The position numbers and the translations under genes were made by a program. The notes under the pieces are model-generated. The model ran no database searches. It was not told the origin of the DNA and saw nothing but the letters and a program-made list of their open reading frames with translations. A stretch of DNA of 64,000 nucleotides from Caenorhabditis remanei (Eukaryota > Nematoda > Chromadorea > Rhabditida > Rhabditidae), in assembly GCF_010183535.1 (NCBI RefSeq), contig NW_026526158.1, forward strand, positions 1 through 64,000, given 5' to 3'. Positions 19,205 through 56,200 of this stretch are shown in pieces; within the stretch, counting starts at the first letter, position 1; each line of letters starts with the position of its first letter.

Positions 19205-22200
19205 ATGGCGGACATCGACGAAGACGAAGCGACGAGAAGGGCTGAAGAAGAGGCGAATCGATTGGCTGAGGACGAAAGAATTCGACTGGAAAACGAATTG
19301 TTGGCAGAAGAACCAATGGAGGAAGGAGACGAAGAGAAACGAGTCCAGGAGGTGAGATTAGAGGAAATTGAAAAGGCTATCAATGAAACCTGCACTGACA
19401 TCAAAAACCAGACAAAATTCAGCACGAAACAGTGTAGAGTATTGTTGTCGCCACTCATTGGTAAAGTTCTAGAAGTAGAAGAACAATTCCGTGGGAAAAA
19501 GAAAGAAAGTGAATTCTGGGAAAAGATGAATGTCAAAATGAATGAAACTGTTTTGTCATTGCAGAATGAATTGGAGAGAAAAAGTCAACAGCAGCCGCCG
19601 ACGTCACTCGAGGAGCCAACAGCAACAAGTGTATTTTCCGGTCAATCGATACAAGGAAATCAAGAAAGAACGAAGATGGTGAGTTTGCTAGAAGCAAATG
19701 AGATTCATACCGAAGAGGAATTGAACAAGTTGTTTGAGAAATACGAACAACTGGAGTATGAATTGAGCGTCAAAGTGGAATATTTGCAGCGCTCTCAACG
19801 TCAAACGGACTCGTTTCGTTCGGAACTATGTCGATTGAAGGTCAAGTGCGATCAACAACAACAGAAGCTTCTCGCCGAAGAGGAAAAAGCAAAGAAGATG
19901 TCGGAAGAGTTGAAAACGAAGTATTCTAATCTTCGTGCAAATTCGTCGACTCGTTTCGGTGAGTGTAACCAGCAAACGGGGGAGCGAAAAGAAAGTACGC
20001 GTTACTATAATGCAGAAACTTCCGAAATCATTGACACTATTCCTCTGCAAGAATCGCGTGATTCTGGGAGAAATTGGAATCAAAGGATCGTTGAACAAAA
20101 TGCTCAAAGAAGCATTATTGTTCATAATGAACATGAAATGTCAAACATGAATGCGCAATGGAGAATGGCACAAGCTCTGCCAGATCCTCCAGTATTCTCT
20201 GCAGGAAAAAATTCTGTTAATGCTGAAACTTTTGAGAGGGCATTCTACATGAAATACAGATTCTTCGATATTGAGGCTCAGAAAAACTTTCTTGAAACGA
20301 AATTCCTGTCTGGAAACGCGTTGACCGTGTATAAAGGGTTACCGGAGTCGGATAAAAATTCGGTTTCGCGTATTCTCGATGCCATCAAACGTCGGTTGAG
20401 TCAGTCGGAACCAGAAGAGTCGCGTCGTGCGAAAAGCAAATTTCAAGCGTTGAAATTGCACAAAGAGCAAACTGTTCAAGACTTTTGTCTTGTTATGGAC
20501 GAAGTTGTTCGCATTGGTTACAAAGGAGTGCCTGAATACCAAATTTCGTCAATGAAAACAACAAAGTTGCTTGATGAAATGAGAGAGCACACTGTTTTTG
20601 AAGTTTTGCTTCAAATTCTGTGCTCACAGCTGAGAAATTGTCCTGTTGAGGAACAATATGAGTTGTGCCGAGTAGAAGCAACAATGTTTGATGAAGAATG
20701 GAGAAGTGGGAAAAAGAAAGCATCGCAAAATGAGATGAGAATGAACCGAGGGCAGTCGAATCAATATTCTAATAACGTGCAGCGCACAGGTTTTACACAA
20801 AACAATGCATCCGCCCCACAACAGTCCTCCAGAGTCAACAGATATACTCCGAACAGTCAATCGAATAGTTATCAATCTAATTCGGGAGCTGAGTCGAGCA
20901 GCAATCAATGCACATCAACTACTGGTCAACAACAAAATTTCAGTACAAGCAATGATTTGAATAATCAATGTGCTCCGAAAGGTTACATGTACAATGAGAA
21001 AAGTCCGGAATGTTGGAAGAATGTAGTCCATAGTTCTGATTCTGCTAATAACGCGTCGAGTAGTGCGTTGGGGTTTCGCAAATGTAGTGAGTGTAGTCTG
21101 ACAGGTTGTCATGCACCTACATGTTCGAGAGCGCCTGGGTCAAATACATCAAAAGTGAAAAGTAATTCAACTATTGTTTGTTTCAGATGCGATCAGCAAG
21201 GACATATCGCTTCGAAGTGTCCGATACGGAATGCTTCGATACAAGAAGTTCGAGTAGCTCCGGAAATTCAGTCGACAGTGGAAAATCAGAAGTTCAAAAT
21301 GAAGTCTGATACAAAATGTTCAAGTGATAAGGAATCAGAAAGGGAACTGATTGATCACGAAATGGAAACGAGAAATCTGTGTGAAGGGCAGAGTGTTGCT
21401 GCTAGTGTTTTCAAGAAAGATATGGTTATTGATGTGGACAGAGTGCCAATTAAAAGCATCAATTCCATAGAATTTTCTGTTATGAGTTCCGATGAGATGT
21501 TGCGTAGTGGGGATACAAAGGATGATGGACTTCAGACCTCCTGCACAAAACACGCGCATACAAAGGACAATAGTGGTGGTGTGAACAGGGAGTTCACAGA
21601 AGCCAATAGTCAGAAAAACGGATATTGTGATGAAGAGCATAAATCTGAAAGGGATCAGAGATTATGTAGTATTTCATTGACGAAAACTAAGAAGCAAAGT
21701 GTCCAACAGAAGAAAGTTTCTGATGTGATTTCAAGTTTTGGAGATCTGAAGAGAGATCAGAAAGAACATAATGTTCAGAAAAATATAGTGAACTATGAGT
21801 CGACGCAGTCGTACATGTCTTCAGAAGATGGAGATGGAAAGAAAAAGAGGAATACAGTGGACCAGAAAGCTGTCGACAATGTTATGTGTCAAGGTCCCCC
21901 ACTGAATTTCATAGAAAATTCTTCAAGTCTCAATCAATATGATAATGTGGATGCTAACGAAGCAACAGATATTGTGAAGATAAACACATCAAAATCAAAG
22001 TTTCTCAATCAAAAGTGCCCCAAAAAGCCTGGACTACAAAAAACGGGAGATGACACCTGCGGTGGTAATTTTCCAAAGAAATCCAAACGGCGTAACAAGG
22101 AGGAAACCAGTCCGAGAACGGATCCACCAGTAATACTTCGTTTTGATTCGGATCTATGGTTGCATGATACCTCACCGGGATCATTGGATTCTGACAATGA

Positions 22201-22228
22201 CGATCAACTCGATTCCTATCAAAAATGA
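19205..22228 (+). CDS. Retrotransposon-type Gag, copy 2 (C-terminally truncated)
   Basis: A 1,007-aa ORF. The acidic, coiled-coil-rich N-terminus covers about residues 1-250. A gag capsid-like helical region follows (about 330-510, FERAFYMKYRFFDIEAQKNF, with the usual retrotransposon-gag layout), then a Gln/Ser/Asn-rich linker, a CSEC/CHAPTC cysteine cluster (about 628-641) and one CCHC knuckle (from about 659). The basic, low-complexity tail ends at TATCAAAAATGA, where the stop is created by the junction with the next leader. No protease or RT follows, so this is a gag-only, non-autonomous unit or a gag-derived gene. The family is likely Ty3-like, but I cannot name it. Confidence 0.75.
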   Translation: MADIDEDEATRRAEEEANRLAEDERIRLENELLAEEPMEEGDEEKRVQEVRLEEIEKAINETCTDIKNQTKFSTKQCRVLLSPLIGKVLEVEEQFRGKKKESEFWEKMNVKMNETVLSLQNELERKSQQQPPTSLEEPTATSVFSGQSIQGNQERTKMVSLLEANEIHTEEELNKLFEKYEQLEYELSVKVEYLQRSQRQTDSFRSELCRLKVKCDQQQQKLLAEEEKAKKMSEELKTKYSNLRANSSTRFGECNQQTGERKESTRYYNAETSEIIDTIPLQESRDSGRNWNQRIVEQNAQRSIIVHNEHEMSNMNAQWRMAQALPDPPVFSAGKNSVNAETFERAFYMKYRFFDIEAQKNFLETKFLSGNALTVYKGLPESDKNSVSRILDAIKRRLSQSEPEESRRAKSKFQALKLHKEQTVQDFCLVMDEVVRIGYKGVPEYQISSMKTTKLLDEMREHTVFEVLLQILCSQLRNCPVEEQYELCRVEATMFDEEWRSGKKKASQNEMRMNRGQSNQYSNNVQRTGFTQNNASAPQQSSRVNRYTPNSQSNSYQSNSGAESSSNQCTSTTGQQQNFSTSNDLNNQCAPKGYMYNEKSPECWKNVVHSSDSANNASSSALGFRKCSECSLTGCHAPTCSRAPGSNTSKVKSNSTIVCFRCDQQGHIASKCPIRNASIQEVRVAPEIQSTVENQKFKMKSDTKCSSDKESERELIDHEMETRNLCEGQSVAASVFKKDMVIDVDRVPIKSINSIEFSVMSSDEMLRSGDTKDDGLQTSCTKHAHTKDNSGGVNREFTEANSQKNGYCDEEHKSERDQRLCSISLTKTKKQSVQQKKVSDVISSFGDLKRDQKEHNVQKNIVNYESTQSYMSSEDGDGKKKRNTVDQKAVDNVMCQGPPLNFIENSSSLNQYDNVDANEATDIVKINTSKSKFLNQKCPKKPGLQKTGDDTCGGNFPKKSKRRNKEETSPRTDPPVILRFDSDLWLHDTSPGSLDSDNDDQLDSYQK

Positions 22229-22963
22229 CTTGGGGGCCGAACGCCGTTGTTTGACCTCTCGTTACCGAAATCTTCTTCGGAAGACGAGAATTGTTCATTT
22301 CGTTGGTTCTTCTTACACGTGGACCCGGAAAGAAAGGCTAGCGAAGTGACAAGAACTCTGTTTTTTGCTTACACGTGGACCCGGAAAGCAAAAATCAGTT
22401 TTCGTTGCCTCTAGTATAAGAATTGTCTGTTGCTACACGTGAACCCGGAAGCACAGTCAGTTTTTATTTGTCTCTTGTTGGAAATTGTGTGTGCTACACG
22501 TGAACCCGGAAGCACATTCAGTTTTCTCTGCCTCGTGTTACAAAAATTAAGTGTTGCTAAACGTGAACCCGGAAGCACACTCAATTTTTGTCAGTTTTAC
22601 TGATTTCGGCACATAATTTTCAACGGAAACGTCGATTTTCCGGGAAAATTATTGATTTTTTTCGTCGGAAATTAATTTTCGGTGAAAATTTCGTGCTGAA
22701 ACAGTAAAATTTTTCGAAAAGGCTAATATTTGAATTAAAATTTGGCAAAAACATTGCGAATTTCTAAAATTCAAGTATTTTCTTGTCGGAAAATTCAAAT
22801 TGTTCGCAGAGAATAACTGTGTGTGAATTCTTCGGAGAAGCTGTTTCATTTCTTCGAAATAATCGTCATTTCATCGTGAATTTACTTCTTTTTCGTCAAT
22901 ATAGCCTTGCGAAATTGAATAATCAAGTATAATTTCCAGGGTAAACTCTATCATTGCGAGAAG
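22229..22963 (+). promoter_or_regulatory. Gag leader, second copy
   Basis: A 735-bp copy of 18,470-19,204, identical by eye, with the PBS-like start at 22,231 and the CACGTG series at about 22,313-22,560. It directly follows the junction-made stop of gag copy 2, with no LTR between the tandem units. Confidence 0.7.
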
Positions 22964-25900
22964 ATGGCGGACATCGACGAAGACGAAGCGACGAGAAGGG
23001 CTGAAGAAGAGGCGAATCGATTGGCTGAGGACGAAAGAATTCGACTGGAAAACGAATTGTTGGCAGAAGAACCAATGGAGGAAGGAGACGAAGAGAAACG
23101 AGTCCAGGAGGTGAGATTAGAGGAAATTGAAAAGGCTATCAATGAAACCTGCACTGACATCAAAAACCAGACAAAATTCAGCACGAAACAGTGTAGAGTA
23201 TTGTTGTCGCCACTCATTGGTAAAGTTCTAGAAGTAGAAGAACAATTCCGTGGGAAAAAGAAAGAAAGTGAATTCTGGGAAAAGATGAATGTCAAAATGA
23301 ATGAAACTGTTTTGTCATTGCAGAATGAATTGGAGAGAAAAAGTCAACAGCAGCCGCCGACGTCACTCGAGGAGCCAACAGCAACAAGTGTATTTTCCGG
23401 TCAATCGATACAAGGAAATCAAGAAAGAACGAAGATGGTGAGTTTGCTAGAAGCAAATGAGATTCATACCGAAGAGGAATTGAACAAGTTGTTTGAGAAA
23501 TACGAACAACTGGAGTATGAATTGAGCGTCAAAGTGGAATATTTGCAGCGCTCTCAACGTCAAACGGACTCGTTTCGTTCGGAACTATGTCGATTGAAGG
23601 TCAAGTGCGATCAACAACAACAGAAGCTTCTCGCCGAAGAGGAAAAAGCAAAGAAGATGTCGGAAGAGTTGAAAACGAAGTATTCTAATCTTCGTGCAAA
23701 TTCGTCGACTCGTTTCGGTGAGTGTAACCAGCAAACGGGGGAGCGAAAAGAAAGTACGCGTTACTATAATGCAGAAACTTCCGAAATCATTGACACTATT
23801 CCTCTGCAAGAATCGCGTGATTCTGGGAGAAATTGGAATCAAAGGATCGTTGAACAAAATGCTCAAAGAAGCATTATTGTTCATAATGAACATGAAATGT
23901 CAAACATGAATGCGCAATGGAGAATGGCACAAGCTCTGCCAGATCCTCCAGTATTCTCTGCAGGAAAAAATTCTGTTAATGCTGAAACTTTTGAGAGGGC
24001 ATTCTACATGAAATACAGATTCTTCGATATTGAGGCTCAGAAAAACTTTCTTGAAACGAAATTCCTGTCTGGAAACGCGTTGACCGTGTATAAAGGGTTA
24101 CCGGAGTCGGATAAAAATTCGGTTTCGCGTATTCTCGATGCCATCAAACGTCGGTTGAGTCAGTCGGAACCAGAAGAGTCGCGTCGTGCGAAAAGCAAAT
24201 TTCAAGCGTTGAAATTGCACAAAGAGCAAACTGTTCAAGACTTTTGTCTTGTTATGGACGAAGTTGTTCGCATTGGTTACAAAGGAGTGCCTGAATACCA
24301 AATTTCGTCAATGAAAACAACAAAGTTGCTTGATGAAATGAGAGAGCACACTGTTTTTGAAGTTTTGCTTCAAATTCTGTGCTCACAGCTGAGAAATTGT
24401 CCTGTTGAGGAACAATATGAGTTGTGCCGAGTAGAAGCAACAATGTTTGATGAAGAATGGAGAAGTGGGAAAAAGAAAGCATCGCAAAATGAGATGAGAA
24501 TGAACCGAGGGCAGTCGAATCAATATTCTAATAACGTGCAGCGCACAGGTTTTACACAAAACAATGCATCCGCCCCACAACAGTCCTCCAGAGTCAACAG
24601 ATATACTCCGAACAGTCAATCGAATAGTTATCAATCTAATTCGGGAGCTGAGTCGAGCAGCAATCAATGCACATCAACTACTGGTCAACAACAAAATTTC
24701 AGTACAAGCAATGATTTGAATAATCAATGTGCTCCGAAAGGTTACATGTACAATGAGAAAAGTCCGGAATGTTGGAAGAATGTAGTCCATAGTTCTGATT
24801 CTGCTAATAACGCGTCGAGTAGTGCGTTGGGGTTTCGCAAATGTAGTGAGTGTAGTCTGACAGGTTGTCATGCATCTACATGTTCGAGAGCGCCTGGGTC
24901 AAATACATCAAAAGTGAAAAGTAATTCAACTATTGTTTGTTTCAGATGCGATCAGCAAGGACATATCGCTTCGAAGTGTCCGATACGGAATGCTTCGATA
25001 CAAGAAGTTCGAGTAGCTCCGGAAATTCAGTCGACAGTGGAAAATCAGAAGTTCAAAATGAAGTCTGATACAAAATGTTCAAGTGATAAGGAATCAGAAA
25101 GGGAACTGATTGATCACGAAATGGAAACGAGAAATCTGTGTGAAGGGCAGAGTGTTGCTGCTAGTGTTTTCAAGAAAGATATGGTTATTGATGTGGACAG
25201 AGTGCCAATTAAAAGCATCAATTCCATAGAATTTTCTGTTATGAGTTCCGATGAGATGTTGCGTAGTGGGGATACAAAGGATGATGGACTTCAGACCTCC
25301 TGCACAAAACACGCGCATACAAAGGACAATAGTGGTGGTGTGAACAGGGAGTTCACAGAAGCCAATAGTCAGAAAAACGGATATTGTGATGAAGAGCATA
25401 AATCTGAAAGGGATCAGAGATTATGTAGTATTTCATTGACGAAAACTAAGAAGCAAAGTGTCCAACAGAAGAAAGTTTCTGATGTGATTTCAAGTTTTGG
25501 AGATCTGAAGAGAGATCAGAAAGAACATAATGTTCAGAAAAATATAGTGAACTATGAGTCGACGCAGTCGTACATGTCTTCAGAAGATGGAGATGGAAAG
25601 AAAAAGAGGAATACAGTGGACCAGAAAGCTGTCGACAATGTTATGTGTCAAGGTCCCCCACTGAATTTCATAGAAAATTCTTCAAGTCTCAATCAATATG
25701 ATAATGTGGATGCTAACGAAGCAACAGATATTGTGAAGATAAACACATCAAAATCAAAGTTTCTCAATCAAAAGTGCCCCAAAAAGCCTGGACTACAAAA
25801 AACGGGAGATGACACCTGCGGTGGTAATTTTCCAAAGAAATCCAAACGGCGTAACAAGGAGGAAACCAGTCCGAGAACGGATCCACCAGTAATACTTCGT

Positions 25901-26293
25901 TTTGATTCGGATCTATGGTTGCATGATACCTCACCGGGATCATTGGATTCTGACAATGACGATCAACTCGATTCCTATCAAAAATGGAAAAGAGCTGTTC
26001 CAAAGATGTTCAAATCCCAAGTGGTGCCTCGTCCTCTGAAGGATCCACCAACTTCAACAAATCAATCGACTTGGAGTGACACCAAGTTCGAATCTGCCAA
26101 GGAGTCACCTCGTCCACTCAATGATCCACCGGATTCATGGATGGAGGATGTCAATTGGAGACGCATGCAGGAGGAGTATCGCCCTCGAAAGGACCCACCG
26201 AGCCCATATTGTCAACATGGTCATAGGAACCTACTTGGATGTCTTCAGTCTACGCAGTTCTTGCCGACTCCGATGTCTACGGTCAGCAGCTAG
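22964..26293 (+). CDS. Retrotransposon-type Gag, copy 3 (full length)
   Basis: A 1,109-aa ORF, identical to copy 2 over 1,006 residues except Pro to Ser in the cysteine cluster (C to T at 24,875). It then continues for about 102 residues with three repeats of an R-P-x-x-D-P-P motif (RPLKDPP, RPLNDPP, RPRKDPP). This tail shows that copies 1 and 2 were cut at the tandem junction. A 3' UTR of about 280 bp and then the LTR-like repeat follow. The segment from 21,950 onward is mirrored on the opposite strand at 42,550-46,893. Confidence 0.8.
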   Translation: MADIDEDEATRRAEEEANRLAEDERIRLENELLAEEPMEEGDEEKRVQEVRLEEIEKAINETCTDIKNQTKFSTKQCRVLLSPLIGKVLEVEEQFRGKKKESEFWEKMNVKMNETVLSLQNELERKSQQQPPTSLEEPTATSVFSGQSIQGNQERTKMVSLLEANEIHTEEELNKLFEKYEQLEYELSVKVEYLQRSQRQTDSFRSELCRLKVKCDQQQQKLLAEEEKAKKMSEELKTKYSNLRANSSTRFGECNQQTGERKESTRYYNAETSEIIDTIPLQESRDSGRNWNQRIVEQNAQRSIIVHNEHEMSNMNAQWRMAQALPDPPVFSAGKNSVNAETFERAFYMKYRFFDIEAQKNFLETKFLSGNALTVYKGLPESDKNSVSRILDAIKRRLSQSEPEESRRAKSKFQALKLHKEQTVQDFCLVMDEVVRIGYKGVPEYQISSMKTTKLLDEMREHTVFEVLLQILCSQLRNCPVEEQYELCRVEATMFDEEWRSGKKKASQNEMRMNRGQSNQYSNNVQRTGFTQNNASAPQQSSRVNRYTPNSQSNSYQSNSGAESSSNQCTSTTGQQQNFSTSNDLNNQCAPKGYMYNEKSPECWKNVVHSSDSANNASSSALGFRKCSECSLTGCHASTCSRAPGSNTSKVKSNSTIVCFRCDQQGHIASKCPIRNASIQEVRVAPEIQSTVENQKFKMKSDTKCSSDKESERELIDHEMETRNLCEGQSVAASVFKKDMVIDVDRVPIKSINSIEFSVMSSDEMLRSGDTKDDGLQTSCTKHAHTKDNSGGVNREFTEANSQKNGYCDEEHKSERDQRLCSISLTKTKKQSVQQKKVSDVISSFGDLKRDQKEHNVQKNIVNYESTQSYMSSEDGDGKKKRNTVDQKAVDNVMCQGPPLNFIENSSSLNQYDNVDANEATDIVKINTSKSKFLNQKCPKKPGLQKTGDDTCGGNFPKKSKRRNKEETSPRTDPPVILRFDSDLWLHDTSPGSLDSDNDDQLDSYQKWKRAVPKMFKSQVVPRPLKDPPTSTNQSTWSDTKFESAKESPRPLNDPPDSWMEDVNWRRMQEEYRPRKDPPSPYCQHGHRNLLGCLQSTQFLPTPMSTVSS

Positions 26294-26575
26294 ATTCTCT
26301 TCACTACCGGAGTTCTAATATAATAATCCTTTTATCTTTCTTATTTATTTATTTTTAGTCTATAGTTTTATTCCCCCCTTTCCAACGACGATATTATCCC
26401 CCATGTCCTTATCATTTTCTATAACTCTTTATCTACTTTTTATCATATTCTATATTTCTATAGTGTTTAAGTTAAACCCAAAAAAGCTCAATCTTTTGTA
26501 TCTCCTAGTATCTTCACGAGTGTTCCGTGTCATTCATTAAAGCCACGGGAGAAGGGACTTGAAAGGACCCCGAGA
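26294..26575 (+). other. 3' untranslated region of gag copy 3
   Basis: No ORF. A T-rich stretch lies between the gag stop and the LTR-like repeat, where pol would be in an autonomous element. The absence of any RT, protease or integrase trace supports a gag-only unit. Confidence 0.6.
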
Positions 26576-26929
26576 TGTCCGGTTTCTACCGGTTTTTTAT
26601 CTCTAAAAAGTCTATAAAGTCACTCCAAGTCTTAGACTTGCCTTCATAACTCGCGGACTCAATGCAGTTGCGCTCTAGCGCATTGTATCTACTCTCCGGC
26701 GCGAACATGTAAAAGTGAAGAGAAAAGGAGAATTGTAATCATTCTTGAGCTTGGGGTCACCTAGAGTTAGGTGATTTTTACCCGTTTCAGTCAAGTTTCG
26801 CCCGTTTATACTTTTTGGGTGGTTTTTGTCACCTTTTTTCTATTGTTTTAATTGTCTAGTAGGGATTAGGTTTTATTCATTTCCCAACCTTTTTTGTGTA
26901 GCAATTGTCTTGTTGGCAATTGCATAAAT
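26576..26929 (+). repeat. LTR-like repeat, right copy
   Basis: Nearly identical to 16,752-17,106; one base of a C-run (gtttcgccc versus gtttcgcccc) differs. It starts TGTCCGG and ends near CAATTGCATAA. It lies downstream of gag, as a 3' LTR would, and is followed at once by Maverick-side DNA containing AATAAAA. Confidence 0.6.
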
Positions 26930-27396
26930 TGAGATCAATAAAATAGTAGTTGACTCGAAAACTTGTGTTTATTGATTTTCTTGTCTTTTCGCTCATTGTC
27001 TGTTTACCAGAAGCTAGCGTGACACCGTTGTCACGTCTAACTTTCTGACTCCATTTTGTTCATTTTTGTTCATTTTTATTGAAAATTTAAATATTCTAAT
27101 GTATTTATTCAACGGCTAAACTTGGAAGAGGTGGACGAATTATGATGGCCTAACTTTCGAAATATGAATAGATCAGTATTTCCCGCGGAGAATACACGAG
27201 AAAGTATATATGTCATGTGACTTTCAACATTTTGTAAAAAAAAAAAAGGCCTAGACTGTAGTGCGTGCGGAGACAACGTAAAGTTTTCCCTTTTTGTTTT
27301 TGGATGACGTCATCCATGTAGCAACAAGAGAAGAAAGAAGTAGGAGTACTATTCAACAACCAATTTATTTTGAAAAAAAAAAAGACGGTTTAAGTA
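26930..27396. other. Non-coding segment between LTR-like repeat and RING gene (left arm)
   Basis: No gene seen. It includes AATAAAA soon after the LTR-like repeat, an A12 run near 27,238, a perfect 16-bp palindrome TGGATGACGTCATCCA (27,301-27,316) and a polyadenylation signal for the RING gene on the minus strand. The Maverick terminal inverted repeat should lie hereabouts, but I could not define one. Mirrored at 41,447-41,913. Confidence 0.5.
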
Positions 27397-28563
27397 TCAG
27401 AGCTGAAGATGTGGTGGTGGTGGTGGAATGTAGCCGGGGATCATGCTTATCGACGTTGGGAATCCCGCCACAGCCGAGACAAAGTGCCAACGCCGGCATT
27501 CGGTACACACCGCAAAGGAGTCCTCTCGGTGCTTGACCGTGATTCGACCGACACACTCCTCACAACACGAATGGCCACAGCCTGAAAAGTACAGATGTTT
27601 TTGAACAGTTTTAAAAATGTGATATTTCTTACGTAGTGTTTTGGGCAGAACATCGGAATCGTATGGCCGAAGACACAGCATGCACTGCCTACTTGCTTCT
27701 CTTGCCGCAATATCTGCCCTAAACCATTCCAGCTGTTCTTGCTGCGTTCGAATTGTGTGCCGCAAGCCGGCATTCTGGACCATCACCGTCTAAATAAAAC
27801 AGACTTTCTATTTTTAAGTTCAAAGTTGTTCGCTTACCCCCAGGCTTCTTTCCATGGCTGTTCTCTTCCTTTCCATGACTCTTTGCTTTTCTTTCAACGA
27901 TGCCACCTCTCTCTCGTATCCCCGTTTGAAGGTGGCGCACTCTCTCGTCAAAACCTCCACCCGCTTTTCCAAAGCAGTCATTCTTTTCTTTGAAATGGCA
28001 GCTTTCTCCACGTCGGACAACACGCGCTGAGAAAGTGAAAATTATGTTCAAGATAACTATCAAAAAGTTTCTATTCGCCTCCCAGTTTCATTTTTCTTGA
28101 CAATCAAAACCTCAAATTTTGCCACAAATCAGAGAAATTCTACAGGAAAAGTTCTGACAACTTTTCATGATCATGTAAAATACCAAGAAGAGTTTTGCCA
28201 CTTGACAAGATATTCCTATTCTATGTTCCAAAATAAACTCATTTTTCATTGAAATCAATTGAGGGACCATTTAGGAGAACTTTCTGATCTATCTGCCTAA
28301 GTTTCATTGAACAGTTCAGTACAAAAAACGTCACATTCGACTACAAGCAAACACACACTCAGAGTTGCGGAGTGTTGTTAGTGAAAGTAACGGGAAACAG
28401 TAAAAGAGAATACTATATTCTATTCATTGTTTTTCAGTAAGAAACCATAATTTGATATTCAAACCTCAAACATACTGTTTTTTTTAAACTTTCTGGTCCT
28501 AATTTTATATAATTTCTAACTAACCTTCGGTTGATTTGGAGTTTGGCGGACAGTCGACGGCAT
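27397..28563 (-). CDS. RING-finger protein, left-arm copy
   Basis: Mirror copy of the four-exon RING gene at 40,280-41,446, with the same splice sites and no visible coding change. See that entry for domains. Its TATA-like box (TATAAAAAG on the minus strand) lies at about 28,636-28,644. The first intron (about 500 bp) is much longer than the others and holds one base difference between arms (near 28,270). Confidence 0.7.
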
Positions 28564-28855
28564 TCTAGACAATCAAAAGCTTCAAGACAGCAATAGGCTT
28601 GTAATAGGCTTGTAATAAGGGGTAGATAGAGAGCTCTTTTTATAGCAGCAATGTGGGCGGAGACAGAGTTTACACTTATTTTTGGAACCCTGATAATTAA
28701 TCATCAGCACCATTTTTGGATTGTTACAACGCACAGCGATGATTTAGGAATGAGTGTACGGACATGTATCTCTCGTCGAAAAAACCAAACGTGTACAATT
28801 GTGAAGAATACTGTAGAAAATTAGCAGGTTTGACATATTTTTGAGAAATTAAGCA

Positions 28856-29113
28856 TTATCCAGACGCAACATGATATTTGGAATGAGCATCTTTGTAAAT
28901 CTTGACGGTTCCAATAAGAGTCATTGTTTTGAAGGCATCTTCCAATAGCGGTAGCATATTTGGATGAGAAACATATTGAGGAAGAGGGGTGTAGATAGGA
29001 GTTTGGTTCATAACCGTAGGTTGAGGAGCCTGTTGATTGGGAATATCCGGTTCTGGAATTTGGGGTTCCAGGGAGCCGGGTGGAAGGGGCACCTCTTCTG
29101 GCTGGTCAAACAT
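28856..29113 (-). CDS. Pro-rich 85-aa protein, left-arm copy
   Basis: Mirror of 39,729-39,986: a short protein with a Pro-rich N-terminal half and a more ordered C-terminal segment. It begins 1 nt after the protease stop. Function unknown. Confidence 0.55.
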   Translation of the reverse strand: MFDQPEEVPLPPGSLEPQIPEPDIPNQQAPQPTVMNQTPIYTPLPQYVSHPNMLPLLEDAFKTMTLIGTVKIYKDAHSKYHVASG

Positions 29114-45879: not shown

Positions 45880-46614
45880 CTTCTCGCAATGATAGAGTTT
45901 ACCCTGGAAATTATACTTGATTATTCAATTTCGCAAGGCTATATTGACGAAAAAGAAGTAAATTCACGATGAAATGACGATTATTTCGAAGAAATGAAAC
46001 AGCTTCTCCGAAGAATTCACACACAGTTATTCTCTGCGAACAATTTGAATTTTCCGACAAGAAAATACTTGAATTTTAGAAATTCGCAATGTTTTTGCCA
46101 AATTTTAATTCAAATATTAGCCTTTTCGAAAAATTTTACTGTTTCAGCACGAAATTTTCACCGAAAATTAATTTCCGACGAAAAAAATCAATAATTTTCC
46201 CGGAAAATCGACGTTTCCGTTGAAAATTATGTGCCGAAATCAGTAAAACTGACAAAAATTGAGTGTGCTTCCGGGTTCACGTTTAGCAACACTTAATTTT
46301 TGTAACACGAGGCAGAGAAAACTGAATGTGCTTCCGGGTTCACGTGTAGCACACACAATTTCCAACAAGAGACAAATAAAAACTGACTGTGCTTCCGGGT
46401 TCACGTGTAGCAACAGACAATTCTTATACTAGAGGCAACGAAAACTGATTTTTGCTTTCCGGGTCCACGTGTAAGCAAAAAACAGAGTTCTTGTCACTTC
46501 GCTAGCCTTTCTTTCCGGGTCCACGTGTAAGAAGAACCAACGAAATGAACAATTCTCGTCTTCCGAAGAAGATTTCGGTAACGAGAGGTCAAACAACGGC
46601 GTTCGGCCCCCAAG
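45880..46614 (-). promoter_or_regulatory. Gag leader, inverted copy
   Basis: Mirror of 22,229-22,963 with the five CACGTG-type motifs and the PBS-like TGGGGGCCGAACGCC at its far end (about 46,598-46,612). It precedes the minus-strand gag copy. Confidence 0.65.
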
Positions 46615-46893
46615 TCATTTTTGATAGGAATCGAGTTGATCGTCATTGTCAGAATCCAATGATCCCGGTGAGGTATCATGCAACCATAGATCCGAATCAA
46701 AACGAAGTATTACTGGTGGATCCGTTCTCGGACTGGTTTCCTCCTTGTTACGCCGTTTGGATTTCTTTGGAAAATTACCACCGCAGGTGTCATCTCCCGT
46801 TTTTTGTAGTCCAGGCTTTTTGGGGCACTTTTGATTGAGAAACTTTGATTTTGATGTGTTTATCTTCACAATATCTGTTGCTTCGTTAGCATC
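46615..46893 (-). pseudogene. Gag tail fragment cut by the palindrome 1 / palindrome 2 junction
   Basis: Last ~92 residues of the truncated gag unit, ending in the junction stop. The upstream part is replaced at 46,893/46,894 by polB sequence in antisense. Confidence 0.85.
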
Positions 46894-47972
46894 GATGTTT
46901 TTCCTTTGCAAGTGTGAGTTTTTCTTTCCATTTTCACAAATTTTCTCTCAATTTTAGTGTGCGCAAAGGAAGGAAATCAGGAGAAATGCACACATTCCGA
47001 CGAAGAACGGTCTTTCACCGGAACCTTCACCACCGTGGAGCTGAAAAAAGCATTGAGTCTCGGATACAAGATCGTCGAGGTGTACCATGGAATCAAGTAT
47101 GAGAAGTGGGTCAAGAATGATGCCAGTGGAAAAGGCGGGCTTTTCACTTCTTATATTGATACGATGATGAAGGCGAAGATTGTAAGTTTTTCCGACGAAA
47201 TAATATTTCGTAATTTTGAAAATTTTTCAGTATAGCAGTGGATGGCCCTCCGATGTGGTCACCGATGCAGAAAAATTGGAATTCTGCCGGGGGTACATGG
47301 AGAAGGAGAACATTGAACTGCTAGAAAGTCTCTTCGAGGGGAACGCTGGAATGAGAGCAGTGGCAAAATTATTGCTCAATGCCTTGGTGAGTATTTCAAT
47401 ATTGAAACTTTATAAAAAATGTATTTTCAGTGGGGAAAATTCGCACAGCGAGCCGACCGAGTCAATACAGAGATCATCCTGGATCCAGGAAAATTTTGGC
47501 AGATTGTCCACGACACTGCCCTGGATCTTCTGGATGTGAGGCCGGTAAACGATGTGCTGATTGTTCAATACAGGCAAAGAGAAGAAACTCTCTCAAGTTT
47601 GAAGACGAGTGCTGTTCATCTGGCTGCATATGTCACAGCATATGCAAGACTCCGTCTCTATAGTCTGATGGAAGCCGTTGGCCCCGACAACATTGTCTAT
47701 ACAGGTAAATATTATAAATTATCGTCAAAAGTTCTATTTTTCTATTTTCAGACACGGACTCAATCATCTTCAAACTCCCACATGGCACACCGAATCCCTT
47801 GGAAGATAAGATGGGATCGTACCTTGGTCAACTGACGAATGAACTCAAAGGGACCATGAAAGAATTTGTTAGCCTTGGTCCCAAAACGTATTCTTACAAA
47901 GAACAGTTGGCCAATGGCGAGGAGAAGGTGGCAATCAAGGCGAAGGGCATAACCTTTGGTTATTTTGAATAA
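46894..47972 (+). pseudogene. polB: PolB 3' fragment (left arm of palindrome 2)
   Basis: Mirror of 53,235-54,313. It keeps the end of exon 9 and exons 10-13, including motif B (LLLNALWGK) and motif C (YTDTDS). It lacks the N-terminal domain, the whole 3'-5' exonuclease and motif A, plus any promoter. The TAA stop overlaps an AATAAATTGGT signal. Confidence 0.85.
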
Positions 47973-47997
47973 TAAATTGGTTATAAAAAACTTTTCT

Positions 47998-48105
47998 TTT
48001 TGGGGAGGAATGGGGACTATGCGGGAAAAAATGAGGGGAGGAGGAAGGGAGGGGGAATGGGGGAGGAGGCCTGCGGGAAAAAAGGGGGGAAGAGAGAGGT
48101 CATTT
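47998..48105 (+). other. Purine-rich G-run tract
   Basis: Downstream of the polB stop the plus strand carries many runs of 3-6 G separated by A (aggggaggagg, agggaggggg, aatgggggagg, aaggggggaag). This is potential G-quadruplex or polypurine triplex DNA. The mirror is a C/T-rich tract at about 53,102-53,209. No ORF is supported here. Confidence 0.6.
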
Positions 48106-48277
48106 CCCGCACTTGGTTTTTGTGGTCAACTATCTCCCACAACATTAACACTTTTTCAGAACCTGACCAATGAGCCGCTCCGGTGAGGAGTGGTGAAGGG
48201 AAGGATAGGCAATTTGCTAGCACTTCTACTCCAGCTCGCTTGTTATCTATTGGAAGTTGGTTTCAAAAATATATGTT

Positions 48278-48827
48278 TTATTTCAAACAATTTAAGTACA
48301 ACAATATCCAAAGGTGTCGATCAATAATGTTAACTTGAACTCCTTCTTTTTGACTGAACCATGTGAGATATTTTTGACTGACTACCGAACTGTTGACAGA
48401 AGCAGATGGTTTTACATCCAAGACAATTGGTTTTTCTGAATGCAACTTCTCACTAGAAGTTGGGATGAGCATATTCAGTTGTCCTGCAATATTTACATTT
48501 ATAAGAAACTTCCCTCGTCTTGATATAAACTCACTTTTCAGTTGAATCTTCAGTTCTTCGTTATCTCCTTCATAATCTGGGTGACTTTCTCGAGTCGGAG
48601 AAGCGTTTCATTCTCATCTTGAATTAACTTCTCGTTGATTTCGATAAATATGTGTTCAGGTTTTATGAACAAAACAGGAAAATCTCTGGAAAATGACATA
48701 TTGTTCTAGTTAGAAGAATTATCACTCACCCTTTGACTGAGTCGATTTCAAAAGACTTTCCCATAGCTGCAAGACTCATTGTCAAAAACTTCATAGAATC
48801 CAACAATCTTACACCATTATGCTCCAT
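48278..48827 (-). pseudogene. PolB-derived mini-gene, left-arm copy
   Basis: Mirror of 52,380-52,929; see that entry. Its TATA-like TATAAATA is at 48,964-48,971 on the minus strand. Confidence 0.6.
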
Positions 48828-49390
48828 GAATATCAGTTTTGTGCCATCCAGTATAAGATGAGACGCTGCTTCAACACTCAGAAAAAATCAGATTTAAATA
48901 GAGATAGGACATCACTGGCGTCCAAAAATGATATAGAATGAGGGAAACGCTGCAATGAGGCGCTATTTATACCACCCAAACGGCTGTTTGTCAAGGACAA
49001 ATGGGATGAGTCATCACAGAGCACACCAAAAGTTCCGGTAGGAGTTGGCATCGTGCCAACTTTTAGAGGTTATTTCAACATTCACAATGCATGGAAATTC
49101 CCAATACTTTGGAATGGAATCTCTCACAACACAAACTCCTTTTCAGAACCTGACCAATGAACCGCTCCGGTGAGGAGTGGTGAAGGGAAGGTTGAGCCTT
49201 TGGCTTACGCTTCATCTCCAGGTCACTTGTTGTGACCCTCCGACTTGCTTTTCTTGGTGGTTATGTTGTTATATGGGAAAGAGGGGACGACAAACAAAAC
49301 ATTTCTCTCTCTCGCGTCCGCTTCGATGACGTCATGTTGGAATCTTGCCAACTAGAGAAAAGTTGTCCGTAACTTCGAAAATGTTACGGA

Positions 49391-49522
49391 AAGTATAATT
49401 TCTTGACAAAAAGTATAATTTCTTGACAAAAAGTATAATTTCTTGACAAAAAGTATAATTTCTTGACAAAAAGTATAATTTCTTGACAAAAAGTATAATT
49501 TCTTGACAAAAAGTATAATTTC
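49391..49522. repeat. 20-bp tandem repeat upstream of ATPase
   Basis: Six perfect copies plus a partial copy of aagtataatttcttgacaaa. It ends about 85 bp before the ATPase ATG, so it may be a promoter-proximal repeat. The mirror is at 51,685-51,816. Confidence 0.9.
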
Positions 49523-49607
49523 GATAAAAAATACAAAGATGGTCCATTTTCTTGTTATATTCGAAACTTGGAAATGGTGATAAAGACGCAAAAATAATTC
49601 ATTCAAC

Positions 49608-50237
49608 ATGGTTAAGTTGTCTTGGCAGAGTACTATTCTGATTGTCGGTCCCAGTGGCCAAGGAAAAAGCACTTTGGCTCGTCAAATTGTGGAGAAGCGG
49701 AACACTATTTTTGATGTGGACAGCAAAATTTGCTTTTGGTATTACGATACTTTTGAAAGCGTACCCGACTCGATGAAGAATCGGCCTGATATCATGTTAC
49801 GGGAAGGATTGCCGAACTTGGAAGAATTGAAGAAATACAAAAAAGATCAAGTATTGGTGGTTATAGACGATTTAATGACGAAAATTGACCAAAACTCTGG
49901 AATGGAACGACTTGTTTCGGTTTTGGCCCACCACTACGATATGACTGTTATTTTCTTACTTCACACTATTTTTTACTCAAAAGTTATCAGAAACCTTCGT
50001 CTTCAGGCAAGTTATATCATTTTGTTCAAAAACAACGCGGACAAGTCAAGTGTGCGGTGTTTGGGATCTCAACTTATGCCTGGTGCTTGTAACACTTTCT
50101 TGGCCATTTATAACGACGCTACAAGTCAACCTTACACGTATTTACTTATCGATCTTCACAAAAATTGTCCCGACGAGATTCGATATCGTGACAATATTCT
50201 TCCTGGCCGAATAACACATGTCTTCATCCCAAAATAA
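49608..50237 (+). CDS. FtsK/HerA-type genome-packaging ATPase, left-arm copy
   Basis: Identical by eye to 50,970-51,599 on the opposite strand; see that entry. Intact, with its own ATG. The stop region overlaps the next ORF by 20 nt. Confidence 0.88.
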   Translation: MVKLSWQSTILIVGPSGQGKSTLARQIVEKRNTIFDVDSKICFWYYDTFESVPDSMKNRPDIMLREGLPNLEELKKYKKDQVLVVIDDLMTKIDQNSGMERLVSVLAHHYDMTVIFLLHTIFYSKVIRNLRLQASYIILFKNNADKSSVRCLGSQLMPGACNTFLAIYNDATSQPYTYLLIDLHKNCPDEIRYRDNILPGRITHVFIPK

Positions 50238-50556
50238 CTGTTCCCAATGGGATTTGGACACTTTTCACAAAATTCTCGCTTTGTCTTCAAATTTGTCAGA
50301 AAGTGATAGAATCTCGGAATTGAAAGATATTCCGGATAATGTGCTGATTTGTCTTGTGGAACTCGTTTTCAACATAATAAACGGTACAATCAAGATTTCC
50401 CCTCGTTCAGTCCAAAAGTTGAAACCTCGCATGTTTGGCCTTTTTTCGATCATCTTCTTCAATTTCGTTATTATTCAACCTTTTGTTCACAATATTGGTC
50501 AAATGACTTTTAATGTGTGCAAGTTTGACATCACTTTCCATGGGAGTATTGAGTAA
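50218..50556 (+). pseudogene. 119-aa protein, left-arm copy, C-terminus replaced at palindrome junction
   Basis: The first 69 residues match the protein at 50,630-50,989. After the Lys-Pro at 50,426 the frame runs into loop DNA and ends with an unrelated 43-residue tail. The conserved QSGG...LLPVL C-terminus is absent. Confidence 0.75.
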
Positions 50557-50643
50557 ATTGCCAATAGGATCAACTTCTTTCCGATTTGCGATTAAATCTG
50601 CATGTTCTTCGATCGAAAGCAAGACATATTTACCGTAGGACAT
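50427..50643 (-). pseudogene. N-terminal half of the split conserved Maverick protein
   Basis: The ORF begins at ATG 50,643, overlapping the end of the 119-aa gene by 14 nt. Its product opens MSYGKYVLLSIEEHADLIAN, then helical segments (HIKSHLTNIVNKRL) and a charged stretch cut at the palindrome junction (50,427/50,426); a few junk residues follow. The KYVLL-type start is that of a Maverick protein whose C-terminal half resembles the ORF at 34,162-34,665. Joining the two halves at the two loop edges would keep the reading frame. Function unknown. Confidence 0.6.
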
Positions 50644-50989
50644 GTTCGAGAATACTGGATGCAGCAGAAATCAAAACGGGTAATAGAATAGGGAGGGGAC
50701 TACCACCAGATTGAATGAGAAATTCACGAGTTTCGTCAATGTCCCGGATATTGGACAAATGTCTCAAAGATTCAGAGTAAGGTTTCAACTTTTGGACTGA
50801 ACGAGGGGAAATCTTGATTGTACCGTTTATTATGTTGAAAACGAGTTCCACAAGACAAATCAGCACATTATCCGGAATATCTTTCAATTCCGAGATTCTA
50901 TCACTTTCTGACAAATTTGAAGACAAAGCGAGAATTTTGTGAAAAGTGTCCAAATCCCATTGGGAACAGTTATTTTGGGATGAAGACAT
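50630..50989 (-). CDS. Conserved small Maverick protein, 119 aa, intact copy
   Basis: Helical N-terminal part (TFHKILALSSNLSESDRI, CLVELVFNIINGTI). The C-terminus is REFLIQSGGSPLPILLPVL, a pattern (R-x-x-L-x-x-x-G-G followed by a hydrophobic helix) that recurs in small Maverick and adenovirus-like virion proteins. It overlaps the ATPase end by 20 nt and the split gene start by 14 nt, so three genes are chained by overlaps. Role unknown, probably virion-associated. Confidence 0.6.
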   Translation of the reverse strand: MSSSQNNCSQWDLDTFHKILALSSNLSESDRISELKDIPDNVLICLVELVFNIINGTIKISPRSVQKLKPYSESLRHLSNIRDIDETREFLIQSGGSPLPILLPVLISAASSILEHVLR

Positions 50990-51599
50990 GTGTTATTCGG
51001 CCAGGAAGAATATTGTCACGATATCGAATCTCGTCGGGACAATTTTTGTGAAGATCGATAAGTAAATACGTGTAAGGTTGACTTGTAGCGTCGTTATAAA
51101 TGGCCAAGAAAGTGTTACAAGCACCAGGCATAAGTTGAGATCCCAAACACCGCACACTTGACTTGTCCGCGTTGTTTTTGAACAAAATGATATAACTTGC
51201 CTGAAGACGAAGGTTTCTGATAACTTTTGAGTAAAAAATAGTGTGAAGTAAGAAAATAACAGTCATATCGTAGTGGTGGGCCAAAACCGAAACAAGTCGT
51301 TCCATTCCAGAGTTTTGGTCAATTTTCGTCATTAAATCGTCTATAACCACCAATACTTGATCTTTTTTGTATTTCTTCAATTCTTCCAAGTTCGGCAATC
51401 CTTCCCGTAACATGATATCAGGCCGATTCTTCATCGAGTCGGGTACGCTTTCAAAAGTATCGTAATACCAAAAGCAAATTTTGCTGTCCACATCAAAAAT
51501 AGTGTTCCGCTTCTCCACAATTTGACGAGCCAAAGTGCTTTTTCCTTGGCCACTGGGACCGACAATCAGAATAGTACTCTGCCAAGACAACTTAACCAT
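50970..51599 (-). CDS. FtsK/HerA-type genome-packaging ATPase
   Basis: 209 aa, single exon. Walker A GPSGQGKST at residues 14-22, Walker B VLVVIDD at 82-88, then a sensor-like HHYDMTVIFLLHT and an Arg-containing RNLRLQASYIILF. The size and layout match the A32-like packaging ATPase of Mavericks, which would drive element DNA into the capsid. It is preceded by a 20-bp tandem repeat (51,685-51,816) and followed by overlapping small genes on the same strand. Confidence 0.88.
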   Translation of the reverse strand: MVKLSWQSTILIVGPSGQGKSTLARQIVEKRNTIFDVDSKICFWYYDTFESVPDSMKNRPDIMLREGLPNLEELKKYKKDQVLVVIDDLMTKIDQNSGMERLVSVLAHHYDMTVIFLLHTIFYSKVIRNLRLQASYIILFKNNADKSSVRCLGSQLMPGACNTFLAIYNDATSQPYTYLLIDLHKNCPDEIRYRDNILPGRITHVFIPK

Positions 51600-51684
51600 G
51601 TTGAATGAATTATTTTTGCGTCTTTATCACCATTTCCAAGTTTCGAATATAACAAGAAAATGGACCATCTTTGTATTTTTTATC

Positions 51685-51816
51685 GAAATTATACTTTTTG
51701 TCAAGAAATTATACTTTTTGTCAAGAAATTATACTTTTTGTCAAGAAATTATACTTTTTGTCAAGAAATTATACTTTTTGTCAAGAAATTATACTTTTTG
51801 TCAAGAAATTATACTT
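51685..51816. repeat. 20-bp tandem repeat upstream of ATPase, right-arm copy
   Basis: Mirror of 49,391-49,522; same unit and copy number. Confidence 0.9.
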
Positions 51817-52235
51817 TCCGTAACATTTTCGAAGTTACGGACAACTTTTCTCTAGTTGGCAAGATTCCAACATGACGTCATCGAAGCGGACGCGAGAGAG
51901 AGAAATGTTTTGTTTGTCGTCCCCTCTTTCCCATATAACAACATAACCACCAAGAAAAGCAAGTCGGAGGGTCACAACAAGTGACCTGGAGATGAAGCGT
52001 AAGCCAAAGGCTCAACCTTCCCTTCACCACTCCTCACCGGAGCGGCTCATTGGTCAGGTTCTGAAAAGGAGTTTGTGTTGTGAGAGATTCCATTCCAAAG
52101 TATTGGGAATTTCCATGCATTGTGAATGTTGAAATAACCTCTAAAAGTTGGCACGATGCCAACTCCTACCGGAACTTTTGGTGTGCTCTGTGATGACTCA
52201 TCCCATTTGTCCTTGACAAACAGCCGTTTGGGTGG
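51817..52235. other. Intergenic region between ATPase and polB-derived mini-gene
   Basis: No ORF. It holds an ATGACGTCAT palindrome (51,872-51,881), the hairpin GGGTCACAACAAGTGACC (also in the first intron of the 144-aa gene), and a ~45-bp segment centred on ctcaccggagcggctcattgg that recurs at about 53,010-53,050. Mirror at 48,972-49,390. Confidence 0.6.
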
Positions 52236-52243
52236 TATAAATA
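52236..52243 (+). promoter_or_regulatory. TATA box of the polB-derived mini-gene
   Basis: TATAAATA, about 144 bp before the first in-frame ATG of the polB-like ORF, on the strand opposite to polB. It suggests the fragment is transcribed on its own. Confidence 0.5.
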
Positions 52244-52379
52244 GCGCCTCATTGCAGCGTTTCCCTCATTCTATATCATTTTTGGACGCCAGTGATGTCC
52301 TATCTCTATTTAAATCTGATTTTTTCTGAGTGTTGAAGCAGCGTCTCATCTTATACTGGATGGCACAAAACTGATATTC

Positions 52380-52929
52380 ATGGAGCATAATGGTGTAAGA
52401 TTGTTGGATTCTATGAAGTTTTTGACAATGAGTCTTGCAGCTATGGGAAAGTCTTTTGAAATCGACTCAGTCAAAGGGTGAGTGATAATTCTTCTAACTA
52501 GAACAATATGTCATTTTCCAGAGATTTTCCTGTTTTGTTCATAAAACCTGAACACATATTTATCGAAATCAACGAGAAGTTAATTCAAGATGAGAATGAA
52601 ACGCTTCTCCGACTCGAGAAAGTCACCCAGATTATGAAGGAGATAACGAAGAACTGAAGATTCAACTGAAAAGTGAGTTTATATCAAGACGAGGGAAGTT
52701 TCTTATAAATGTAAATATTGCAGGACAACTGAATATGCTCATCCCAACTTCTAGTGAGAAGTTGCATTCAGAAAAACCAATTGTCTTGGATGTAAAACCA
52801 TCTGCTTCTGTCAACAGTTCGGTAGTCAGTCAAAAATATCTCACATGGTTCAGTCAAAAAGAAGGAGTTCAAGTTAACATTATTGATCGACACCTTTGGA
52901 TATTGTTGTACTTAAATTGTTTGAAATAA
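52380..52929 (+). pseudogene. PolB-exonuclease-derived mini-gene
   Basis: The segment is homologous to, but clearly diverged from, polB exon 7-8 regions: GVRLLDSMKFLTMSLAAMGK here versus GVRLIDSLKYLTMSLSMVGK in polB, and later KPIVLDVKPSASVNSSVVSQ versus MPIVLDAKPSVSMNNSILSQ. A conserved intron (52,478-52,521) at the VKG-D junction suggests splicing. Exons 52,380-52,477 plus 52,522-52,657 give an open 77-aa frame ending in a predicted helix; the second polB-like segment (52,733-52,929) is out of frame with it but open. It lacks the catalytic exonuclease residues. It may be a decayed duplication, a small regulatory protein, or an RNA antisense to related polB sequence. Confidence 0.55.
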
Positions 52930-53234
52930 AACATATATTTTTGAAACCAACTTCCAATAGATAACAAGCGAGCTGGAGTAGAAGTGCTAGCAAATTGCCT
53001 ATCCTTCCCTTCACCACTCCTCACCGGAGCGGCTCATTGGTCAGGTTCTGAAAAAGTGTTAATGTTGTGGGAGATAGTTGACCACAAAAACCAAGTGCGG
53101 GAAATGACCTCTCTCTTCCCCCCTTTTTTCCCGCAGGCCTCCTCCCCCATTCCCCCTCCCTTCCTCCTCCCCTCATTTTTTCCCGCATAGTCCCCATTCC
53201 TCCCCAAAAAGAAAAGTTTTTTATAACCAATTTA

Positions 53235-56200
53235 TTATTCAAAATAACCAAAGGTTATGCCCTTCGCCTTGATTGCCACCTTCTCTTCGCCATTGGCCAA
53301 CTGTTCTTTGTAAGAATACGTTTTGGGACCAAGGCTAACAAATTCTTTCATGGTCCCTTTGAGTTCATTCGTCAGTTGACCAAGGTACGATCCCATCTTA
53401 TCTTCCAAGGGATTCGGTGTGCCATGTGGGAGTTTGAAGATGATTGAGTCCGTGTCTGAAAATAGAAAAATAGAACTTTTGACGATAATTTATAATATTT
53501 ACCTGTATAGACAATGTTGTCGGGGCCAACGGCTTCCATCAGACTATAGAGACGGAGTCTTGCATATGCTGTGACATATGCAGCCAGATGAACAGCACTC
53601 GTCTTCAAACTTGAGAGAGTTTCTTCTCTTTGCCTGTATTGAACAATCAGCACATCGTTTACCGGCCTCACATCCAGAAGATCCAGGGCAGTGTCGTGGA
53701 CAATCTGCCAAAATTTTCCTGGATCCAGGATGATCTCTGTATTGACTCGGTCGGCTCGCTGTGCGAATTTTCCCCACTGAAAATACATTTTTTATAAAGT
53801 TTCAATATTGAAATACTCACCAAGGCATTGAGCAATAATTTTGCCACTGCTCTCATTCCAGCGTTCCCCTCGAAGAGACTTTCTAGCAGTTCAATGTTCT
53901 CCTTCTCCATGTACCCCCGGCAGAATTCCAATTTTTCTGCATCGGTGACCACATCGGAGGGCCATCCACTGCTATACTGAAAAATTTTCAAAATTACGAA
54001 ATATTATTTCGTCGGAAAAACTTACAATCTTCGCCTTCATCATCGTATCAATATAAGAAGTGAAAAGCCCGCCTTTTCCACTGGCATCATTCTTGACCCA
54101 CTTCTCATACTTGATTCCATGGTACACCTCGACGATCTTGTATCCGAGACTCAATGCTTTTTTCAGCTCCACGGTGGTGAAGGTTCCGGTGAAAGACCGT
54201 TCTTCGTCGGAATGTGTGCATTTCTCCTGATTTCCTTCCTTTGCGCACACTAAAATTGAGAGAAAATTTGTGAAAATGGAAAGAAAAACTCACACTTGCA
54301 AAGGAAAAACATCAGTCTTCCAGAGACTTTTCCAGCGATGACTGGAAGCCTTAAATCCCTCGGAGCCTGCAGCTTGCAGCTCATGAAACCTTCAAAGGGA
54401 ATTCCATCAGGAGAAACGATCGGGAGGGCGAACGTGCTTCTTTGAACATTTTCCGGCGCTCCAATCGGAAAAGCTTCGTGCTTCATGACGGTGGGGTACA
54501 GACTGACCACGTCTACATAGTACCCCGTACCGTCCTTGCAGTCCACGTACACGCGGAAGACTTCAGTACGTCCTCCAACAAGGGCCCGTTGACACTGAAG
54601 CACATCGACGGCTTCGTAGCTGTCAAAGAAGTCTGACATTTCCCGATTGGACCGAAGTTCAGCCTTCACATCACATTCATATACGACACGGACAGGACAT
54701 TTTCCGGATTCTTTCAGAGTTTTGATTCTCTCCTCATCCGCCTTCCAAATGTCCCGGGCACTCTTCTCACCAATAACTGACTCTTCCGAATAAGTACAAG
54801 TATGACCATGATAGTAGCACCCCTGAATTTAGAAATACTCAACTGAAATATAAAGAAAAACTCACAAAAAATTCAATTATTTGGCCGTCAGGGTACTTCT
54901 CACATGGTGGAATATAACCATCCACTCGATGGTTTCCAATTTTTTCTTCACCATATGTTGTGGACATATTCACTTGTACTTTCTCGGATTCACAAATCCA
55001 CGCCAAGAATTTTTGACTCAGGATGGAATTGTTCATGGAGACGGAAGGTTTGGCATCCAACACAATTGGCATTTTCGGGTCCAGATGATTTCGGCGGAAG
55101 ACGAGGGCAGCAGCTGATGCGGCAGTCGTGGTCTCCTGAAGAGATTCAGAGTGTGAGAGTGAAAGAACGTACCCCCACTATAGAGAAATAGACGAAAAAG
55201 TTACCTCGAAGAGACACACATTCGTCATCTTTTCGAATGCGCCCTCGAATTGTGTCATTGAAGTCGCCAGAATGTAGACGTCATTGTAGCAATATCTCAG
55301 CAACTCGTCATAAAAGTTGAACACTTTTCCATCGGCCCTTTCCTTCTCGAGGAAACTTTCCAATTGTTTCCTGTGCTCTGCGGTCTTGTTTTCCAGAGCA
55401 TAGTACTTATTCTCCGGAATTGATCCATTGTATTGGAAATTTTCCTTCCGAATAAAATGGACTGGAAAGTCCCCCTTGAGGGAGTCCACCTTGAAGGTCT
55501 TCCCCACCATCGATAGACTCATGGTGAGGTATTTCAACGAGTCAATGAGTCGCACTCCATTGTATTCCAGATAGACCAATTTGGTCCCATCCAGACAAAC
55601 AGTAGGGGCGGCTTTGTTGCTTGCAATCAGAGCTTCCAGAATGAACTGACCATCGAAGCTAAAAAATTCAGAATAAAATTTAAAAATTTCAAGATTAAAA
55701 TTACCCAGAGGCATTGTGCGCCACAAATGTGAAGCCTCGATGTTTGTCTCCAAACATCCATTCGGTGAATTGCGCCCCGACGTCGATGCCTTCGTCCTTA
55801 ATCTCATCGATGACTTTCAGACGCCCGTCCGGAGAACAGTTCGAACACTTTGAGTCTTCACCCTCCTCAGTAGTCTTCGGAATGTCACTCGAGCATTTGG
55901 GACAACATTTGACACAAGTGAAGAGAGTTGGAATCTGCCTTTTTGTGGTCTCACAAACACGGGTCTAAAAATACAACTATAATTTTTAAATTATTATTGA
56001 AAAAAGTACCTCAACATCAAAAAATCCACGCTTCCGAGTCAACTTCTTTTCGTTTTTGATGGAAGGCATCATTGTGCAAGTATGGCCGGCTTGCTTCTTC
56101 TCTTGACATCTGTGGCAATAAGACTCTCCGCATTCATGTTTTCCAGTCCTCTTGTTGGTATAATAAGACTTTGAACACTTTTGACAATATTTGGTGTAGT

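Follow-up and report, generated by a model that had tools for sequence, protein, structure and literature searches.

Reciprocal foldbacks arising from one DNA break are known from cancer genomes, in which 23 of them were counted in work on breakage-replication/fusion (PMC12807874; this and the other papers are cited from passages of their text). In Caenorhabditis elegans, DNA polymerase theta (Pol theta) leaves scars with insertions copied from one flank by repeated priming (PMC5068794, PMC4490562); the priming is reiterated, and in 16 of 17 complex cases the template came from a single flank (PMC5068794). In helq-1 worms extended break ends are joined to give tandem duplications (PMC8654963), and the foldback inversions of yeast place an inverted duplication next to a break (PMC7467729, PMC10622511). 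A 64,000-bp stretch of the Caenorhabditis remanei genome, bases 1-64000 of contig C114 (68,538 bp) and referred to below as the window, contains a Maverick (Polinton) transposon that is rearranged in the assembly into two adjacent palindromes and that resembles each of these systems in part.

Like the reciprocal foldbacks of PMC12807874, the locus has a pair of foldback junctions that face one another on either side of a single ancestral break, with what appear to be staggered sister ends. It differs from those cases in being found in an assembled nematode genome and inside a transposon, in having loops of 556 and 349 bp resolved to the base, and in that the two dimers have been rejoined together. 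The C. elegans Pol theta scars are deletions with small inserts (PMC5068794, PMC4490562), whereas here the templated insertion sits in a 12-kb inverted repeat. The helq-1 duplications are direct repeats of ~0.1-10 kb, and the passages seen of that paper contain no inverted product (PMC8654963). Yeast foldbacks are centred on short inverted repeats and mostly have small loops (PMC7467729, PMC10622511), in contrast to the hundreds of bases in the present loops. Among the open-access papers listed in a literature search, no title or abstract opening reported such a structure in a Maverick/Polinton.

Arms and loops were delimited by a BLAST self comparison of the window, and the structure described is that of the assembled sequence. 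The left arm of palindrome 1 (21950..34126, forward strand) consists of the 3' part of a nested retrotransposon and the X half of the Maverick, and stops 556 bp before a break site, here called b; the right arm lies at 34715..46893 (reverse strand). The arms of palindrome 2 contain Maverick sequence only, the left one (46894..50427, reverse strand) being a copy of the Y half that begins 349 bp from b, and the right one lying at 50780..54313 (forward strand). The 588 bp between the arms of palindrome 1 (34127-34714) comprise a 32-bp filler (34127..34158) and 556 bp of single-copy Maverick (loop 1 proper, 34159..34714, forward strand), and the 352 bp between those of palindrome 2 (50428-50779) comprise a 3-bp insertion (50428..50430) and 349 bp of single-copy sequence (loop 2 proper, 50431..50779, forward strand). 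An earlier, sequence-only reading of this DNA had proposed two palindromes joined at 46893/46894 with loops of 588 and 354 bp, which agrees with the self comparison in all respects but the length of the second loop. Its estimate by eye of about 99.95% identity between arms also compares well with the 99.943% measured for each palindrome, corresponding to five substitutions and two one-base indels in T runs in palindrome 1 and to two substitutions in palindrome 2. Kilobase arms at 99.9% identity are far beyond chance. The rearranged Maverick as a whole extends over 16314-59442, beyond the 21950..54313 given previously.

Read from left to right, the X half runs to 556 bp before b and is followed by the filler at foldback junction J1, the reversed X half from b and junction J3 (46893..46894), and then by the reversed Y half to 349 bp from b, the 3 bp at foldback junction J2 and the Y half from b. 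J3 is blunt and connects an open reading frame (ORF) with a zinc knuckle in the X copy to a DNA_pol_B_2 ORF in the Y copy, as expected from the earlier placement of the join between gag and polB. A search of the genome (130,466,896 bases in 186 contigs, the longest contig seen being 25.8 Mb) returned each junction once among the best candidates scored. For J3, 1 of 23 matches spans the junction and the other 22 are single-sided, overshooting it by at most 6 bases; for J1 and J2, the spanning matches are 1 of 6 and 1 of 10, respectively.

For comparison, four close Maverick copies on contigs C2, C4, C5 and C6 were fetched in pieces. The window's own loci (L001, L006 and L007) were excluded from the copy comparisons, and BLAST matches of up to 100 bases (loop-edge comparison) or up to 150 bases (retrotransposon and Maverick copy comparisons) were dropped. 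In each of them, 3 bp lie between the loop 1 sequence starting at 34159 and the loop 2 sequence starting at 50431, which are otherwise continuous. Because the two loop edges are only 3 bp apart in every copy, both inverted repeats begin at one break site, which upholds the earlier suggestion that a single Maverick was broken once and that each half became an inverted dimer. The 905 bp that lack a second copy cover exactly this site, whereas their flanks are double, and the two foldback junctions, of opposite orientation, have breakpoints that trace to one ancestral break. By our estimate over ~16.6 kb, two independent foldbacks would share a site with a chance of about 1 in 1,000. In the C4 copy, the break site falls within a 248-aa open frame overlapping the start of the frame that matches the ORF with the integrase core.

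G-quadruplexes at b were rejected as seeds of the palindromes, as the 908-base stretch scanned contains no G3 motif and only one weak G2 motif. Seeding by inverted repeats was likewise rejected. Around loop 2 there is no inverted repeat of at least 10 bp except the arms, and the nine pairs listed around loop 1 include two perfect and one imperfect that involve the filler; the other six are native and imperfect (10-19 nt, 84-90%), among them an imperfect 19-nt palindrome at 34722-34753, close to the arm edge, that may or may not have mattered.

None of the other Maverick copies has the 32-bp filler of J1, which is not native. Within this filler the end of the adjoining arm is repeated twice, first as an exact 16-bp copy and then as one of 10 bp. 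When read from the break end, these copies restart at nearly the same base, with short overlaps by eye. A flank match of 16 was reached by none of 3,000 fillers generated under a dinucleotide model, the maximum being 13. An initial null of 32-mers taken from the element itself was dropped because pieces overlapped the flank; 20 of its 3,000 fillers reached at least 17. The insertion is thus templated from the immediate flank, as expected of Pol theta, and the J1 filler looks like the product of repeated priming during polymerase-theta end joining. A gene for a Pol-theta-like polymerase is present on contig C3, its best match in the Protein Data Bank (PDB) being DNA polymerase theta (E 7.7e-27).

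The common break site, the loop lengths, the filler templated from one flank and the three junctions with their uniqueness can be read directly from the assembly. In the reading that explains them best, to which we assign a probability of about 0.6, the locus is a DNA-repair scar made by the host from one break and not the transposon's own doing. One double-strand break would have occurred at b (34159 / 50431) in a resident chromosomal Maverick, in the ORF beside the integrase core. Resection of the ends would have left overhangs of ~556 nt on the X side and ~349 nt on the Y side, and replication of the resected ends would have turned each break end into two sister ends differing by the overhang. 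The X sister ends would then have been fused together, and the Y sister ends likewise, by end joining of the polymerase theta type, yielding two foldback palindromes with the overhangs as loops. One break, two overhangs, end replication and sister fusion would account for 905 bp of single-copy sequence between double flanks. Finally, each inverted dimer may have been cut again on its outer side, one in the nested retrotransposon and the other in polB, and the two dimers joined end to end at 46893/46894, which would have restored a continuous chromosome. What we infer from this arrangement is that the ends were resected and replicated and that sisters fused, and also which enzyme acted and in what order the steps came.

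Several observations weigh against this account. J2 carries a 3-bp insertion, J3 is blunt and neither shows microhomology by eye, which counts against an assignment to Pol theta at those junctions. The formation of J3 requires extra breaks that have left no independent trace. Tandem duplication, too, occurs at this locus, as seen in the nested retrotransposon, and would suit the two-step alternative described below. Support comes from the assembled sequence of one strain, the small contig (68.5 kb) is unplaced and terminates in a 20-bp satellite, and 12-kb arms may outrun many reads, so that loop 1 may be wrongly oriented with respect to the outer flanks. Furthermore, an identical final sequence would be produced by a variant in which each end snaps back and copies its own strand outward over 12.2 and 3.5 kb before the new ends are joined, although a figure legend of PMC5068794 calls snap-back a minor part of such scars.

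The same final order can also be reached from three junctions in two steps, by a direct tandem duplication from the retrotransposon to polB (forming J3), after which the middle copy would be inverted, one copy breaking at b and the other losing 905 bp around it. We consider this unlikely, but it has precedents at two levels. Tandem duplications with Pol theta junctions build up in helq-1 C. elegans (PMC8654963), and the nested retrotransposon itself is tandemly duplicated, its region 17107-25986 holding 2.36 copies of a 3,759-bp unit, with 2-bp microhomology by eye at the unit junction, whereas all seven other retrotransposon copies fetched hold a single unit. However, both inversion breaks would have to coincide in two copies, for which we estimate ~5% (905 bp of 16.6 kb), and the nematode tandem duplications reported in the passages of PMC8654963 measure ~0.1-10 kb, against ~16.6 kb here.

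An artefact, either of fold-back chimeric reads (missed adapters, amplification) or of repeat misassembly, was named as an alternative by the sequence-only reading and is now improbable, though it retains some weight. The nature of the contig and the near-perfect inverted repeats would fit it, and foldback read artefacts are known, some of them with a long stretch at the fold that does not align (PMC12870357, PMC6218980). Yet the two foldbacks share one break site to within 3 bp, the filler is templated from its flank, the single-copy loops, at 556 and 349 bp, are longer than the 200 bp that PMC12870357 sets as its default foldback threshold, and the same paper, in the passages seen, found virtually none in its PacBio HiFi data. 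Moreover, arms that are the same DNA read twice should be identical but for errors, whereas the present arms carry derived substitutions in single arms. Polarity was called for the seven substitutions, six of them transitions, and the two indels were left out. Judged by the other copies, the derived base lies in the left X arm at 24875 (in 7 of 7 outgroup rows), 28271 (one outgroup only), 31441 and 32754 (4 of 4 loci each), and in the right X arm at the position that pairs with 26556 (7 of 7). For palindrome 2 it lies in the right Y arm at the position pairing with 47921 (4 of 4) and in the left Y arm at 49161 (in 3 of 4 loci), so that no single arm holds all derived states. These arm-specific states speak against an artefact, as do the common break and the templated filler. 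At nematode mutation rates of 1.8-2.7e-9, seven substitutions in 15,711 aligned bases would correspond, at face value, to ~80,000-120,000 generations (wide limits, 33,000-255,000), an estimate that polishing errors, or gene conversion from one arm to the other, would shift.

A one-pass origin by three switches of template during replication, through fork stalling or microhomology-mediated break-induced replication, suits the duplicated inverted segments, the short single-copy gaps and the templated insertion, but J2 and J3 lack microhomology and a common break site is not predicted, which makes it less probable still. The polymerase B encoded by Mavericks is of the protein-primed type, and polB is present here, but the earlier proposal of a Maverick-specific route, in which an inverted multimer arising as a by-product of protein-primed strand-displacement replication became integrated, is rejected as very improbable, since the axes are internal (~7-9 kb of Maverick sequence from the termini), a nested LTR (long terminal repeat) retrotransposon lies inside the arms, satellite abuts the left terminus, the junctions resemble those of host end joining, and the pieces fetched of the four other copies hold no such dimer.

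The assignment to the Maverick/Polinton family is based on DNA polymerase B, a retroviral-type integrase and terminal inverted repeats. Two reverse-strand ORFs match DNA polymerase B (Pfam PF03175), at 54250..54828 (E 1.5e-10), which holds the outer end of palindrome 2, and at 55178..55816 (E 3.4e-16). The forward-strand ORF at 34650..35225 contains an integrase core (rve, PF00665, E 7e-8) that scores just above the curated cut-off (33.1 against 32.6 bits). The terminal inverted repeat of the X end (16314..16347, forward strand) abuts satellite and is identical over 34 of 34 bp to the outer end of the opposite terminus in the C2 copy. The rest of the Y half (54314..59442, forward strand) has its terminus cut off; other copies run ~210-240 bp further to the terminal repeat, so that the window's own Y-end repeat is lost and 59442 joins satellite directly. 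For the packaging ATPase there are only weak P-loop matches (Pfam; PDB, E 2.9e-4), to a P-loop NTPase-like ORF at 49584..50237 (forward strand) with a second copy at 50970-51623 (reverse strand), and the double jelly roll domain and the adenovirus protease gave matches below cut-off only. A PDB look-up of a 422-aa ORF returned a single match, at E 0.053. A perfect 20-bp minisatellite of 6.7 copies was located by Tandem Repeats Finder (TRF) in the arms of palindrome 2 (49390-49522 and 51685-51817).

In the pieces fetched, the Maverick parts of the other four copies match the window in one order and are not inverted dimers; outside the Maverick match of C4 piece L015 there are different inverted repeats, which have diverged. 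The X half of the C6 copy appears to hold ~12 kb of additional DNA, at about 21,082,425-21,094,561, between matches to window positions 29825 and 29819. The same copy has an empty site for the LTR retrotransposon nested in the X end (16752..27049, forward strand), which is internally rearranged and flanked by an apparent 5-bp target duplication by eye. The possibility that the palindrome arms reach host DNA outside the Maverick was rejected, as the C6 copy places the retrotransposon and 27051-28756 inside the Maverick X end. The first LTR of the retrotransposon is clipped, and a Pfam search of three of its ORFs gave a zinc-knuckle domain only and no reverse transcriptase.

The Maverick is bordered by two 20-bp satellite arrays identified by TRF, on the left at 10835..16311 (forward strand) and on the right at 59443..64000 (forward strand) and, in the fetched contig end, onward to 68,538; both are long and have the same orientation. 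Further to the left, at 1638-10180 on the reverse strand, lie ORFs of the BEL/Pao retrotransposon type (Peptidase_A17, RVT_1 and DUF1759 in Pfam), followed by a match to phlebovirus G2 (E 6e-77) and by G1 glycoprotein matches below cut-off, the whole being an LTR-type element with an envelope-like gene. The window gave no Rfam match at the gathering threshold and no gene with ARAGORN under the bacterial code. The strain behind the assembly is, we presume, C. remanei PX506. PX506 is an inbred line, built with PacBio and chromatin capture (PMC9650304, PMC10461856).

Nematode chromosomes are holocentric, which is perhaps the reason why such dimers were tolerated. That the locus is a heritable, natural reciprocal foldback, in which a germ-line break had both ends resected, replicated and sister-fused by Pol theta before the dimers were rejoined at the same locus, is put forward tentatively. 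If the structure is real, one sequence holds the position of a break, the lengths of resection on both sides and the stutter of the repair enzyme, and models of inverted duplication become testable at the base level outside cancer. A single break could then convert a 16-kb virus-like transposon into twin palindromes without the element's own replication. As a natural reciprocal foldback, the locus would preserve at base resolution the trace of a process whose descriptions have so far come mostly from cell models and human disease genomes.

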